Shown here: positions 23,468 through 29,031 of the stretch, piece by piece
Layout: every line of letters starts with the position of its first letter
How positions within the stretch are numbered: position 1 is the first letter of the stretch
Source: Fibrobacter sp. UWB4
Lineage (GTDB): Bacteria > Fibrobacterota > Fibrobacteria > Fibrobacterales > Fibrobacteraceae
DNA length: 64,000 bases
Direction of reading: 5' to 3'
Assembly (NCBI RefSeq): GCF_002210345.1
Contig: NZ_MWQI01000001.1
Location: 434,001-498,000, forward strand
The notes under the pieces: generated by a model
Seen by the model: the letters and a program-made list of their open reading frames with translations, nothing else
Databases searched by the model: none
What the model was told of the DNA's origin: nothing
Made by a program: the position numbers and the translations under genes

Positions 23468-25864
23468 TTATTTATTTTGTTTTTTTTGGAAGTAGTCCCA
23501 TATTTCGTTAACCTCGTAGGGCTTATACAAACCTCTTTCATATCCTTCATTAAGTTCTTTTTTTATTTCATCAGAAGACAATTTTTCTTCTTCGAAATAT
23601 TTAATTTGTTTATGGTAATGAGGCTGTTTATCATGCGATGATTGTGTATCGTATGTTTTGTTCTCTGCTTTTTTTGTGCTTTCAATAATCTGAATATTTT
23701 TGTCAATAAAGGCAATCATCAAAATGACTTCATTTTTAGTCCCCTCTATAGGGGTTTTGTTTGCAAAATCAGTTAGTTTCTTTTTTAATTCATCAAAAAC
23801 ATACTTTTTTACAACGTTCCAATCATTATAATCAGCTTGTAGCCATGAAACCTCACGGGTATCAACATATTGTAAAGCTGAAATTGCTGAAAGATATTTG
23901 TCTAAAAATTTTAAATAATTTTTGTCATCTTTTAAATGCCTTATGATTTTTAAATTATTGAATTTATTTAATATATGCAAATATACGCTTTTATTTGATA
24001 TGTTACAGTAGTTGAGAATCCTTATAAAATCAGGAGAAATTTCAGCAATTTCTTCTTGCTGGAAATAAAAATCAATAAGTTTTATCCAATTTACTGGATT
24101 GCTCTCGTATATTTCAAAAGCTTGGAATGTGTCAAATAATTCAGGAATTAGAAATCGATAAATGGTACGATTATCTCTTTCCATGTCTTTCCCGTAATAC
24201 ATTTTTTTGTAAAGTTTTTTAAATTTAGATTTTTGCGATTGTGGTGAAACTCCTAAAACACTTTTGTCCATTTCTATTACAAATTTTTCGTAATTTGTAT
24301 ATTCTGATTTGCCGGCTGCATATAAATTTTTAATCATTCGATTGATCTTGTCGTTGTTTTCTCTTTCATCAACATTTTTGAAAAAATCGTCAATGTTTTT
24401 TTTACGATTCGTATTTTCCTTAATTTCCAAAGAATCTACAAGTGATTTAAAATTATAACCTAGCAAAATAAGAATTTTTAATGCTAGTTTGTTGTTTGAA
24501 TTATTCCAAAGAATTTCTGATTTCTGTTCAATGTTTAAAAATGATTTTAATGAATACATTTTATTGTCGTACTCGAAAATTTCAGCTTCCAAAAAGTTGC
24601 TTGATAGATCAATCTTTTGATATATGGAGTAACAGAAATGTTTAATGTAATAGAATATTATTATAGACTGTTTGGATTTTTTTAAGGACTTAAAAGAGTC
24701 TTTCTTAATAGATGAATTGACTTCTTCTAAGAAAATTTGCATTTTTCTAATGGAAAAAGCGGGGATTTCAAGCTTGTCGAGAGTTTCAATTTGTATTCGT
24801 TTTGAAATTATGTCAGGAATAATTATTGTGTAAGAAAAAAAATTGAAAATGTCTTTTTCTAAATTTGAGTATTTTTCATTTTTACAAAAGAATTGAATGT
24901 TTTTTTCAAAGGAAATGGGGGCTAAAGATGTTGTATAGGGAATGTATTTTTCTAGATAAAGTTTGTTTGTTCCAAGAATTCTAAGCAATTGATTTTCTTC
25001 ATATTGATATACAAATTTTACATAGTCGCAAGAAAGCATATCTACAATGGAAAAAATTTTGAATAGGATTTCTTTGCTTTCTATTCTATCAATATCTTCA
25101 AAAGATATTACAATCGGTTTTCCGATTTTTTGAATATCTTTTTTTATATATTCAAATGACCTTGTATATGAACTTGCTGATAAAAATACATCGCCAACAT
25201 TATATAATGCGGGCTGAGATAATAGCCATTTTATTTTAGAAGATGTGATTGAAAAAATAGATTCGTTTTCTAATTGATAATTGATTTCGTTTAAAATGAA
25301 TTTTTCAACGGAATCTATTGTTACTGAAAGGACTTTGATTGTGAGAAATATGTATTTGTCTTTAAGATCTTTTTCCAATCGTTTAAATAAGAAAGTTTTT
25401 CCATCTCCCCATTGTGCATTTATTCCAATAATATTGTGATTTATGAGCATTATTTTGATTCGTTCTAATTCGTATTTTCGTTCAGAAAAAAGTTTTTCTT
25501 TAGGGATTGTAAATTTGGCATGTTTGAAAAAATGTGATGAAATAAATAAACACAACATTATGAAGTTGAGTGAGGTGTATATAATGAAAATAAAATCAAT
25601 AAAATCAAAGCAAATCCAAAAACCTTTTAGGAATTTTTCAAACAGAAATACTCCTAGATTTGTTAAAGCTATTAAACTAACAAAGCCTCCCCAGTAAATA
25701 TTTCCTTTATAGAAATATTTTGTCAATAGAAATAAAATTAATGGAATGGAAATTCCTAGATATTGAACAAAGTTAATATTTAGAGAAAAAAATATGATAA
25801 AAGATAATGCTGTTGTGAGAAATATTGTGCATGCAATCTTTCTTAAAAGTTTTGATTTCTTCAT
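23468..25864 (-). CDS. Membrane KAP-family P-loop NTPase
   Basis: This is a 798-residue protein. Four hydrophobic segments (about residues 10-30, 33-51, 57-78, 88-110) anchor the N-terminus. They are followed by a P-loop GINAQWGDGKTFLF (147-160; core WGDGKT) and a Walker B region PIVISFEDIDRIES (250-263), the DDLDR-like motif of KAP NTPases. The C-terminal ~450 residues are Lys/Asn/Ile-rich, helical and unrecognised. KAP NTPases are STAND-related ATPases; the founding set includes the phage-exclusion protein PifA, and many members are membrane-tethered. A defence or signalling role is therefore plausible but inferred. The gene is extremely AT-rich compared with its neighbours, a sign of transfer. 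Confidence 0.82.
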   Translation of the reverse strand: MKKSKLLRKIACTIFLTTALSFIIFFSLNINFVQYLGISIPLILFLLTKYFYKGNIYWGGFVSLIALTNLGVFLFEKFLKGFWICFDFIDFIFIIYTSLNFIMLCLFISSHFFKHAKFTIPKEKLFSERKYELERIKIMLINHNIIGINAQWGDGKTFLFKRLEKDLKDKYIFLTIKVLSVTIDSVEKFILNEINYQLENESIFSITSSKIKWLLSQPALYNVGDVFLSASSYTRSFEYIKKDIQKIGKPIVISFEDIDRIESKEILFKIFSIVDMLSCDYVKFVYQYEENQLLRILGTNKLYLEKYIPYTTSLAPISFEKNIQFFCKNEKYSNLEKDIFNFFSYTIIIPDIISKRIQIETLDKLEIPAFSIRKMQIFLEEVNSSIKKDSFKSLKKSKQSIIIFYYIKHFCYSIYQKIDLSSNFLEAEIFEYDNKMYSLKSFLNIEQKSEILWNNSNNKLALKILILLGYNFKSLVDSLEIKENTNRKKNIDDFFKNVDERENNDKINRMIKNLYAAGKSEYTNYEKFVIEMDKSVLGVSPQSQKSKFKKLYKKMYYGKDMERDNRTIYRFLIPELFDTFQAFEIYESNPVNWIKLIDFYFQQEEIAEISPDFIRILNYCNISNKSVYLHILNKFNNLKIIRHLKDDKNYLKFLDKYLSAISALQYVDTREVSWLQADYNDWNVVKKYVFDELKKKLTDFANKTPIEGTKNEVILMIAFIDKNIQIIESTKKAENKTYDTQSSHDKQPHYHKQIKYFEEEKLSSDEIKKELNEGYERGLYKPYEVNEIWDYFQKKQNK

Positions 25865-26543
25865 AGTAATTCATTTTAGAGGATTGTTATTGTTTGCCAA
25901 TAAGGGGTTGTTTATATGTCATTTTTAAATATATACATTATTTAAATGTCGCGTTAGGGATAGTGACCCCTTGGGGCAAAGACTTGCGGACTGTTCTTTT
26001 TTGAAGTTCATAGAAGCAAGGCTTCGTTTTAGGAGGTTGGTAACGAGCGTAGCGAAGGTGGCAACCCCTAAAATATAGTCTGACCCGCATGTATGCGGGG
26101 AACGCCCAAAAGAAAATTATGAATATAGCAGGCCGCGCGAACGACCAGCTTTTTCTATGGAATGCGCGGCCCCTTGCGCGCTCATTTTCGAAATAGTATA
26201 TTCATGGTATAGATAGCACTTCGTCCTGCTGACAGCGTATTCGATTCGGGCAGGTTGTTTCACTATCTGCTTGACGCCGACCTCCCTTTGTTTTGCTTGG
26301 CAGGCGAAAAAATTTGAGGCAGCATACACCCTATGGGGAAACTGGCCCCCTGGCGATCAACGTAGAGCACCGTCTGTCATAAGAAAAATATGGTAGACGT
26401 AAAGCCTTGTCGTTAAAGGTTTGTGAACGATTGTCTTGTGGCGATCGCTGTGTTCTACTGTCGTTATTGAGGTTCTCGTTTGCAGATCACAACTGTTTAA
26501 CCATTCAAAAAGGACATCCCGTTTGGCGGGATGAATCGAAAAT
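25865..26543. other. Long non-coding structured stretch upstream of rpn
   Basis: About 680 bases without a convincing gene. The first 80 nt are AT-rich and hold the KAP promoter. Then composition switches to near 50% GC with hairpins: CCCC/GGGG at ~25969-25978, GAAG...CTTC at ~26010-26023, CCCGCAT/ATGCGGG at ~26082-26099, GCGCGGCC/GCGC at ~26164-26180, and CATCCCG/CGGGATG (~26515-26533) just before the rpn start. A 70-codon minus-strand frame (26117-26329) gives a reasonable-looking peptide containing KQIVKQPARIEYAVSRTKC and may be a gene remnant. No tRNA or known RNA class is recognised. Confidence 0.5.
26127..26154. repeat. Direct repeat copy 1 flanking the rpn unit
   Basis: AGCAGGCCGCGCGAACGACC followed by AGCTTTTT. 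It matches 27557-27584 in the same orientation with two mismatches over about 26 nt. The two copies are 1430 bp apart and bracket the structured stretch plus the rpn gene. Confidence 0.65.
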
Positions 26544-27527
26544 ATGGATTGTTCTCAGCACTATAAAATGCTTAAGGATATGGAAAAGGATCCGAAGAAC
26601 CTTGCCAAGTATCAAAAAATGTACAAATACGCTTATCTTTTGAGTGATGGCGTTTTCAAGATTGTATTCACGGAGGAAAAGTCACATTCGCTTCTCATTT
26701 CGCTGTTGAATGCGATGCTTGACTTGCATGGTGGTGATGCCATCGGGGAAATTTCGCTGGAAATGCAGGAATTCCCGGGTATTTTCAATAAGAAAAATTG
26801 TATTGTCGATATCATTGGCACGACCAATGCTGGCGAAAAGGTTCTTGTTGAAATTCAACAGCAAAAGGACAAGTTTTTCAAGGATCGCGTAGAATACTAT
26901 GTATCTCGTGTTATTGAAAATCAGGTTCATAAGAGCGAAAAATTTGAATTGCCACATATCTATTTTCTTGGACTTCTGGATTTTGAACTTTTCCCAGAAG
27001 AAGAACATGAATACATCCATCATGTCGATGAAATGTGTCATGGCAAGAAGTTCTTCCCAAAGATTCAGAAGGTTTTCGTGGAAATTGAAAAGTTCTTCAA
27101 GCTTGAAAAGTTGGGTTTTACTAAGGATGATGAGTCTGATGCTGCTCAGTGGCTCCGTGCTATCAGGGTTGTTATCAAGGAAGAACCTGCTCCTGAAAAA
27201 ATTATGCAGAATGAAACGTTTAGGCGGTTGCTTGAATCGGTGAAATTGATTAATTTTGCAGAAGAGCTTTTCAACTGCGAGGTAAAGAAAATGACGGATG
27301 TGATGGCTGAACGCGAAAACGCTTTTGCCGAAGGCAAGGAAGAAGGCCGTGTCGCTGGTTTCGCCGAAGGTAGGGCGGAAGGCTTTGCGGAAGGGGCTTC
27401 TACCGAGCGGACGAAAGCGGATCAGGAAAAACGCCAAATGGCGAAAAGTCTCAAGGAACAGAATGTCGATGTTTCTATAATCGCTAAATCGACTGGTTTT
27501 TCTGAAGAGGAAATTCGCAGTTTATAG
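26544..27527 (+). CDS. Rpn family recombination-promoting nuclease / PD-(D/E)XK transposase-like protein
   Basis: This 327-residue protein has the Rpn core: YLLSDGVFKIVFTEE, LLISLLNAMLDL, CIVDIIGTTNAGEKVLVEIQQ and FKDRVEYYVSR. Candidate catalytic residues are D89 (IVDI), E103 and Q105 (VEIQ), matching the D...ExQ variant of the PD-(D/E)XK fold. RpnA of E. coli is a DNA endonuclease that raises RecA-independent recombination. The C-terminus holds EG-repeats (AEGKEEGRVAGFAEGRAEG) and a small helical domain. An in-frame ATG at 27291 has GAGGT 7 nt upstream, so a 78-residue C-terminal product may also be made. Starts at 26568 or 26580 are alternatives. Direct repeats flank the unit. Confidence 0.88.
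   Translation: MDCSQHYKMLKDMEKDPKNLAKYQKMYKYAYLLSDGVFKIVFTEEKSHSLLISLLNAMLDLHGGDAIGEISLEMQEFPGIFNKKNCIVDIIGTTNAGEKVLVEIQQQKDKFFKDRVEYYVSRVIENQVHKSEKFELPHIYFLGLLDFELFPEEEHEYIHHVDEMCHGKKFFPKIQKVFVEIEKFFKLEKLGFTKDDESDAAQWLRAIRVVIKEEPAPEKIMQNETFRRLLESVKLINFAEELFNCEVKKMTDVMAERENAFAEGKEEGRVAGFAEGRAEGFAEGASTERTKADQEKRQMAKSLKEQNVDVSIIAKSTGFSEEEIRSL
27279..27293 (+). promoter_or_regulatory. Internal ribosome-binding site and ATG inside rpn
   Basis: GAGGT (27279-27283) lies 7 nt before ATG (27291-27293), in frame with the rpn gene. Its strength exceeds the site of the full-length start. It would yield the 78-residue C-terminal domain beginning MTDVMAERENAFAEG. Confidence 0.55.
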
Positions 27528-27556
27528 CTAAAATTCAGTTTTTAAGAATGCAAAAA

Positions 27557-27584
27557 AGCAGGCCGCGTGAACGACCTGCTTTTC
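27557..27584. terminator. Bidirectional terminator and direct repeat copy 2
   Basis: AGCAGG (27557-27562) pairs with CCTGCT (27575-27580), with A-rich and T-rich flanks on either side, between the convergent rpn and agcS genes. Its sequence repeats the element at 26127-26154. Confidence 0.8.
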
Positions 27585-27597
27585 TTGTACCGTAATT

Positions 27598-29031
27598 TTA
27601 CAGCTTCTGACCTTCGTTCCAGTAATCGGTGGGTTGCTCGACGCCGCATTCTTTTGCGATGTAGACGGGTTCGAGGCCTTTCTTCTTTTGGTCGGTGTAG
27701 TTCTTGAGTGCCTTGATGGCAATTGGCGAGAGTATCAAGATGACGGGGATGTTCACGAGGACCATGAGGCCTTGGCAAAGGTCTGCGCTGTCCCAGGCGA
27801 ACGATGCGCTGGAGGTGGCGCCTAAGAAGACGATGGCGGTCGCGATGGTCTTGAATACGTTGCGGATTTTCTTGGTGGGGCGTCTGTTCAAGATGAAGCG
27901 GAGGCAGCCTTCGGTGTAGTAGTAGTTCCCGATGAGTGTGGTGTAGCCAAAGAGGCACATGGAGAATGTGATGAAGATGGCGCCGTTGCTGCCGAGGACG
28001 GAGGCGAGAGACTTTTGTACGTAAATGATTCCCGAAATGTCCTTGCTGGGTTCGATGTTGGTCGAGAGGCACATGAGGGCTGTGGCGGAGCAGATGAGAA
28101 GTGTGTCGATGAATACGGAAAGCGATTGCACGAGGCCTTGCTTGACGGGGTGCGAGACGCTTGCGCTTGCGCTCGCGTTCGGGGCGGAACCCATACCTGC
28201 TTCGTTGGAGTAGAGGCCGCGCTTGATGCCGTACATGATGCAGCTTCCGGCGAAGCCGCCGAATCCTGCGTCAAACGAGAATGCGTTCTTGAAAATCGTG
28301 CCGAACATGGCGGGAACATTTGAGATGTTGTATATGATAATGCCGAAGGCGACGATGACGTAGATAGTTCCCATGAAGGGGACGAGGTAACTTGTGATGG
28401 TGGAAATTTTCTTAGCGCCTTCCCAAATGCAAAGAGCGAAGAGGGCGGCTAAAATGAATCCGACGATGAACGGTGTGGATGCCTGATCGTAGAATTTGTA
28501 TCCGGTGAGGGAGTCTTGAATGTTGTATGAGGCGAGCAGGTTGTAGCCCACGATATAGGTGAGGAGCACAAAGCCCGAGAAGAGAACGCCGAGCCAGCGC
28601 TTGCCGAGTGCAGTCTGAATGTAATAGGACGGTCCGCCGTAGGAGTGTCCCGTGACATCGTCGTGGCGCTTGTAAATCTGGGCGAGGGTAGATTCTACGA
28701 ATGCGGAGGCAGCGCCGAGGATGGCAATGACCCACATCCAGAAAATGGCGCCCGGGCCGCCGAGGCAAACGGCCGAAGATACGCCGACGATGTTTCCGGT
28801 GCCGACGCGGGAGGCTGTCGAAACCATCAATGCCGCAAATGACGAAATTCCGTGCTTGTGCAATGGCTTTTCGCGAGTAACGCGGAATGTTTCAATCAGG
28901 TAGCGGACTTGCGGAAATCCCAAGCGAACGGAAAGAAATACCCCGGCTACAATCAAAAATAGCGGGACTATGTAGAAATCGTAAAGGGCGGTGTTAAGCG
29001 CCGAAACAATGGGATGTAAGGGGTTTGACAT
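27598..29031 (-). CDS. Alanine/glycine:cation symporter (AGCS family)
   Basis: This is a 477-residue polytopic inner-membrane protein. Family motifs are clear: ALMVSTASRVGTGNIVGVSSAV, GGPGAIFWMWVIAILGAASAFVE, HSYGGPSYYIQTALG, and SNEAGMGSAPNASASASVSHPVKQG. These correspond to the sodium-coupled transporters that import alanine or glycine. Length and topology are typical. The start at 29031 is ATG (MSNPLHPIVSALNTALYDFY). It is divergent from an aminotransferase, which may share substrate context (amino-acid use), but this is only suggestive. A bidirectional terminator lies 13 nt after the stop. Confidence 0.93.
   Translation of the reverse strand: MSNPLHPIVSALNTALYDFYIVPLFLIVAGVFLSVRLGFPQVRYLIETFRVTREKPLHKHGISSFAALMVSTASRVGTGNIVGVSSAVCLGGPGAIFWMWVIAILGAASAFVESTLAQIYKRHDDVTGHSYGGPSYYIQTALGKRWLGVLFSGFVLLTYIVGYNLLASYNIQDSLTGYKFYDQASTPFIVGFILAALFALCIWEGAKKISTITSYLVPFMGTIYVIVAFGIIIYNISNVPAMFGTIFKNAFSFDAGFGGFAGSCIMYGIKRGLYSNEAGMGSAPNASASASVSHPVKQGLVQSLSVFIDTLLICSATALMCLSTNIEPSKDISGIIYVQKSLASVLGSNGAIFITFSMCLFGYTTLIGNYYYTEGCLRFILNRRPTKKIRNVFKTIATAIVFLGATSSASFAWDSADLCQGLMVLVNIPVILILSPIAIKALKNYTDQKKKGLEPVYIAKECGVEQPTDYWNEGQKL

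Follow-up and report, generated by a model that had tools for sequence, protein, structure and literature searches.

The closest described relatives of the locus considered here are the rpnA-E genes of Escherichia coli K-12 (COG5464, Pfam Transposase_31/PF04754). They encode PD-(D/E)XK nucleases with an E-x-Q motif, and an internal Shine-Dalgarno (SD) sequence lies a few bases 5′ of an ATG at codons 241-245, so placed that the C-terminal domain is encoded. A single paper on RpnS and RpnL was found in the literature (PMC10327210), which describes the following features. The small proteins of rpnA-E have been observed experimentally, and an internal promoter and an internal start are both marked for the E. 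coli rpn genes in the legend of its Fig. 1A. The RpnS proteins block their own RpnL in vivo and in vitro. Repeats of four amino acids are found in the first helix of RpnS, with variation in repeat number in the Rpn of other bacteria. It has also been reported that rpn occurs in 34 bacterial phyla, and that the RpnS of C. difficile is internally started on expression in E. coli, which is abolished by mutation of the SD and start (PMC10327210).

The first-pass annotation of the Fibrobacter locus had pointed to the E. coli genes and proposed that the same plan is visible in a distant phylum. The precedent is real and close, and the internal promoter is part of it (PMC10327210). The plan itself is supported by the comparisons below, though it is no surprise: with rpn in 34 phyla and an RpnS in C. 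difficile, likened here by its description, a Fibrobacter case is to be expected (PMC10327210). As the E. coli genes also carry an internal promoter, the arrangement described here is the known plan in a Fibrobacter form.

The window, that is, the whole 64,000-nt stretch of DNA analysed, contains one such gene (Table 1). Its full-length product is an Rpn-family PD-(D/E)XK nuclease, matching Pfam PDDEXK_2 with an E-value of 5e-33 (115 bits, cut-off 27.4), unlike E. coli RpnA, which matches Transposase_31. It also passes the curated cut-off of TIGR01784, the Rpn or ‘putative transposase’ family (86.6 bits vs 52.1); the name ‘transposase’ is supported by nothing seen for the Fibrobacter gene. The residues D89, E103 and Q105 are identical in 50/50 aligned sequences and are presumably catalytic. 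An AF2 model of the full-length protein (pLDDT 85) contains the nuclease, a long helix at residues 253-305 and two short helices. No significant match to this model was returned by Foldseek (best E 0.039), and the leading rows from the structural aligner VIA, none above Z 6.1, were PD-(D/E)XK-type nucleases, consistent with the fold already known from Pfam. The nuclease had no match in PADLOC-DB 2023, a library that may predate the Rpn report. The nearest named records, from Fibrobacter succinogenes and Fibrobacter sp. MAGs, are up to 98% identical to the window gene. The Rpn model matches 13 stretches in 11 reading frames of the genome to which the window belongs, and has a match in 139/167 genomes of the phylum. 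Taken with the nested signals, the window gene is very probably an RpnL/RpnS gene-within-a-gene, a nested toxin-antitoxin.

Table 1. Features of the rpn locus, in window coordinates
Feature	Position	Strand	Basis
Candidate upstream promoter, TTGCGC-N17-TATATT	26174..26202	+	Consensus supported by own-genome calibration
Perfect 7-bp hairpin, CATCCCG-tttgg-CGGGATG	26515..26533	+	Just 5′ of the full-length ATG
rpn, full-length RpnL, 327 aa	26544..27527	+	PD-(D/E)XK nuclease and C-terminal helical domain
Codons of D89, E103 and Q105 (D...E-x-Q)	26808..26858	+	Three of the eight columns that are invariant in 50 aligned sequences
Putative internal promoter of the nested gene, TTGCTT-N17-TAATTT	27228..27256	+	Conserved TTG-N17/18-TAnnTT pattern (boxes 27228-27233 and 27251-27256)
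Breakpoint	27267..27269	+	Start of similarity in three solo rpnS loci; insertion point in G067
Internal Shine-Dalgarno, GAGGT	27279..27283	+	GAG at Glu246 in 121/122 Glu codons
Nested rpnS, 78 aa, proposed antitoxin	27291..27527	+	Start column, stand-alone orthologues, 7TH0 fold match
Four-residue (mostly xxEG) repeats, first RpnS helix	27324..27395	+	4-aa length steps among orthologues
Terminator-like hairpin 3′ of the gene	27558..27583	+	Near-identical copy at 26128-26153

The proposal of a nested product rested on a GAGGT found 7 nt ahead of an in-frame ATG and opening a 78-residue C-terminal protein. These coordinates are exact in both the sequence and the list of open reading frames: the product begins MTDVMAEREN and is encoded by 27291-27524 plus the stop. 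The internal site had also been called better than that of the full-length start, and pairing with the 3′ end of 16S rRNA agrees, at -7.3 vs -4.1 kcal/mol. The same order of SD strength is found in 44/50 representatives of the family.

A family comparison was made from 136 loci, 135 of which had a tblastn match. Removal of 11 duplicates and of one broken frame (L041) gave 123 distinct full-length Fibrobacter homologues, mostly from one genus and falling into 51 clusters at 80% identity. The SD overlaps the codon of Glu246, which is GAG in 121 homologues and GAA in one, the remaining homologue having Met. In the representatives, GAG makes up 27% of the 1602 other Glu codons, its background level, and among 15 conserved Glu columns the runner-up has 41%. 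At 80% clustering, GAG is present in 49/50 Glu-bearing representatives against 14.1 expected (p = 6.5e-29). The excess persists with coarser clustering, at 60% (14/15, p = 2.4e-7), 50% (10/11, p = 1.5e-5) and 40% identity (5/6, p = 3e-3). On a 120-tip tree built without the distant paralogues L005-L007, the third base of this codon undergoes no changes, compared with at least 9 (median 15) in the other Glu columns. The start column of the 123 homologues holds ATG in 118, GTG in four and a gap in one; the Val that replaces Met is thus encoded by GTG, itself a start codon.

Conservation of the GAGGT and ATG among paralogues had been named among the points on which the proposal would stand or fall. 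Both are kept in the paralogues L002, L003 (38% identity) and L004 (30% identity) of the same genome. A related site is present in L005 and L006, and L007 does not clearly have one.

A single-gene test is far less informative. Of 300 synonymous shuffles, 5.7% attained the score of the top in-frame SD/start within the C-terminal 38% of the window gene (p = 0.057), while the experimentally proven E. coli sites gave p values of 3.7-39% in the same test. Across the family, p<0.05 was obtained for 7/51 representatives vs 2/51 for a control region within these genes. As the test is not significant here and is weak for proven sites, it is not used as evidence. The internal site stands only marginally above chance in the window gene alone, and in the family decisively so. 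Conservation of promoter, SD and start at the codon level, in homologues with identity as low as about 30%, is stronger evidence than any single-gene reading and is independent of wet-lab data.

The promoter emerged from a scan for abnormal synonymous codon choice. Residue 246 ranked first (z 79), followed by residues 235, 229, 234, 236, 233 and 247. Relative to the internal ATG, the constrained columns place a TTG at -63 and a TAnnTT at -40 with a spacer of 17, and a second subfamily has the form TTGACA-N18-TATCTT. TTG-N17/18-TAnnTT is present in 46/50 representatives against 3.3 expected from shuffles, in 115/122 genes, and in 13/15 clusters at 60% identity (expected 1.2); four control regions gave 0, 0, 0 and 1 of 51. 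Since the pattern was derived from the same alignment in which these counts were made, an independent check was carried out on 184 non-coding upstream regions from 464 kb of the same genome (L256-L275 and the window). TTG-N17-TAnnTT occurs there in 17 sense vs 5 antisense regions, the largest excess among nine spacers. A spacer of 18, the form of one subfamily, shows no clear enrichment (4 vs 2 regions). In the 64-kb window alone, the pattern has two upstream matches in 36 genes, and a stricter form none.

The most sense-biased hexamer upstream of genes is TATATT (51 regions vs 20 antisense, of 184), and TTG-N17-TAnnTT, most often with TATATT at -10, is apparently the promoter form of Fibrobacter. 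No published survey of Fibrobacter promoters was recognised among the papers listed by a literature search. The Bacteroidota-type promoter consensus is TAnnTTTG; as an alternative for the conserved block it was dropped in favour of TTG-N17-TAnnTT on account of the spacing and the own-genome enrichment. A search of Rfam with 25900-27700 gave no match. The nested gene appears to have a conserved internal promoter besides its internal start, which goes beyond the first-pass claim.

The short product had been described as EG-repeats followed by a terminal helical domain. Modelled alone from 15 sequences (pLDDT 64), it forms three helices, H4-56, H61-68 and H72-77. The most probable Foldseek match in the PDB is E. 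coli RpnA-S, 7TH0 (probability 0.96, target TM 0.84, E 0.79). VIA also places 7TH0 first, at Z 5.8 and 1.4 Å over 46/46 residues, a match that spans RpnS residues 32-77 only, with the next row at 4.1. An RpnS-type fold is predicted, consisting of three helices of which the long first one bears the repeats. Among six orthologues that share 95-100% identity with the window gene, RpnS differs by whole four-residue blocks, with lengths of 78, 82, 66, 74, 66 and 70 aa.

In its internal promoter, its four-residue repeats (PMC10327210) and its three-helix RpnS fold, the locus resembles the E. coli genes. Separate solo rpnS genes are likewise known in E. coli, where ypaA starts at the same SD. There are also differences. 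RpnS has 49-62 aa in E. coli K-12 and 78 aa here; the SD is GGAG with Glu at -3 in E. coli and GAGGT with Glu at -4 in Fibrobacter; and the nested promoter has the Fibrobacter form. The E. coli solo genes lie downstream of an intact toxin gene, whereas those of Fibrobacter occupy the toxin's own locus, and no close full-length partner was found for them.

The upstream TTGCGC-N17-TATATT probably drives the full-length mRNA, and its counterpart directly precedes solo rpnS in three other genomes. The hairpin just before the full-length ATG, retained in similar form by close orthologues, may limit RpnL translation. The hairpin 3′ of the gene would act as a terminator. Together with its copy it flanks rpn as a direct repeat, and there is no third copy in the window.

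In those three genomes (G052, G046 and G022) the nuclease part is missing at the locus, and the SD, ATG and antitoxin frame are kept behind the upstream promoter. Such retention of precisely the nested gene is a second point that extends the first-pass claim. Similarity to the window gene starts at 27268/27269, ten bases 5′ of GAGGT, and the sequence preceding it matches the window only to about 26203. The stretch from SD to ATG, GAGGTAAAGAAAATG, is kept at 15/15 positions in all three, and the solo frames are intact at 82, 74 and 66 aa, respectively. These loci are without the internal promoter part; instead, the upstream promoter, TTG-N17-TAAATT, stands with its TTG at -66 from the ATG, compared with -63 for the internal one. 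On the downstream side, G046 and G022 continue into the same gene as the window, presumably a sodium/amino-acid symporter, and in G052 that gene is more distant, separated by other DNA. For G046, whose genome is 100% complete, the top full-length relatives show 37% and 32% identity, so no close full-length partner was found there; the G022 and G052 genomes are 71-72% complete. Further stand-alone or truncated copies are found in G054, where the SD is kept with a GTG start behind a different upstream frame, and in G055. A copy in G045 has no clear SD.

The point at which similarity begins in the solo loci is also where 78 nt are inserted in frame, 3′ of the nested promoter and 5′ of the SD (G067 L026:2179-2256; G017:C83:81351-81428). 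Approximately the first 55 bases of this insertion belong to a dispersed repeat with matches in 65/80 Fibrobacter genomes, which looks like a small palindromic repeat.

By analogy with E. coli, RpnL would be a DNA nuclease whose unrestrained activity is probably toxic and which probably serves against phage. It would be translated from the upstream-promoter mRNA through its weak start, behind the hairpin. Within rpn, the putative promoter, a leader of ~25-30 nt, GAGGT and the ATG would form a complete small transcription unit from which the C-terminal domain, RpnS, is made separately. An internal promoter and a stronger SD mean that RpnS should outnumber RpnL. The long repeat-bearing helix of RpnS may then pair with the corresponding domain of RpnL, keeping the nuclease inactive until phage or changed conditions release it. 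Toxin and antidote are encoded by common DNA, so that gain or loss of four-residue repeats alters both at once. Inhibition and phage defence by the Fibrobacter pair are suggested by the E. coli precedent.

The internal start could instead yield a subunit with a structural or activating role in the nuclease complex, as Cas11d, an internally started subunit, has in Cascade. The nucleotide constraint would be the same, and Cas11d is cited as a precedent in the Rpn paper itself (PMC10327210), but this reading is improbable, because E. coli RpnS was found to block RpnL and because the complete G046 genome retains the solo gene beside full-length relatives of low identity, so that serving this nuclease as a subunit cannot be its only use.

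It is very improbable that the block 27228-27293 is a DNA or RNA element for recombination or autoregulation, with the in-frame ATG incidental. The three solo endpoints and the G067 insertion do fall inside the block, at 27267-27269, and a role of RpnL in rearrangements has been the subject of speculation (PMC10327210). However, the constraint falls on the -35, -10, SD and start, with promoter and SD spacing, and the start codon varies solely from ATG to GTG. The solo loci, moreover, lack the promoter part and yet keep the SD, the ATG and an intact frame.

That SD-like bases arose by chance in an ordinary Glu-Val string with no second product is scarcely credible: the shuffle result for the window gene would allow it, as would the SD/start pairs of comparable or better quality that shuffling yields for many homologues, but it is already contradicted by the family comparison, in the GAG frequency at Glu246 and in the unchanged third base on the tree.

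With the nested toxin-antitoxin as the preferred reading, the presence of a solo antitoxin in the place of the toxin is the less expected part of the finding. An antitoxin persisting without a close full-length partner is not required by a plain two-part toxin-antitoxin model. One tentative explanation, rather doubtful at present, is that solo RpnS proteins are standing antidotes that protect the cell from RpnL of corresponding repeat length, whether incoming or from neighbours (‘immunity without toxin’), a state that changes in repeat number then try to escape. As natural deletion experiments, the toxin-less loci allow a direct test of the antidote role.

Nested antitoxins easily escape notice, since annotation assigns a single product to each frame. 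The freezing of the third base at an internal SD, combined with a promoter pattern upstream, provides a test applicable to every Rpn family, and the same test is usable for other suspected genes-within-genes.

Beyond the family, the shuffle test on 30 loci from across the phylum, with frames chosen by a crude rule, gave p<0.05 for 3/30. Under the same crude rule, strong AGGAGG-type internal sites were seen at codons 193-251 in L222-L225, L227, L229 and L230. A distant Fibrobacter Rpn subfamily, with one member in the same genome as the window, likely has a separate internal start: GAGGAACA(A/G)AA(A/G)ATG is present at its own junction in 5/5 sequences (L005, L242, L243, L247 and L248). Among the eight of 92 matching plasmid records used for a cross-phylum check, the internal SD was absent in two Aureibacter genes and Planktothrix, weak in Persicobacter and doubtful in Wolbachia. 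It was moderate in Parabacteroides and Bacteroides faecis, and clearly strong only in Paenibacillus (codon 193). As several other phyla are without a strong internal SD, the nested plan is not universal.

Adjoining rpn on the opposite strand, at 23468-25864, is a KAP-family P-loop NTPase gene (Pfam KAP_NTPase 23.7 bits, cut-off 20). It is a possible defence neighbour, with a weak PifA-like stretch in PADLOC.
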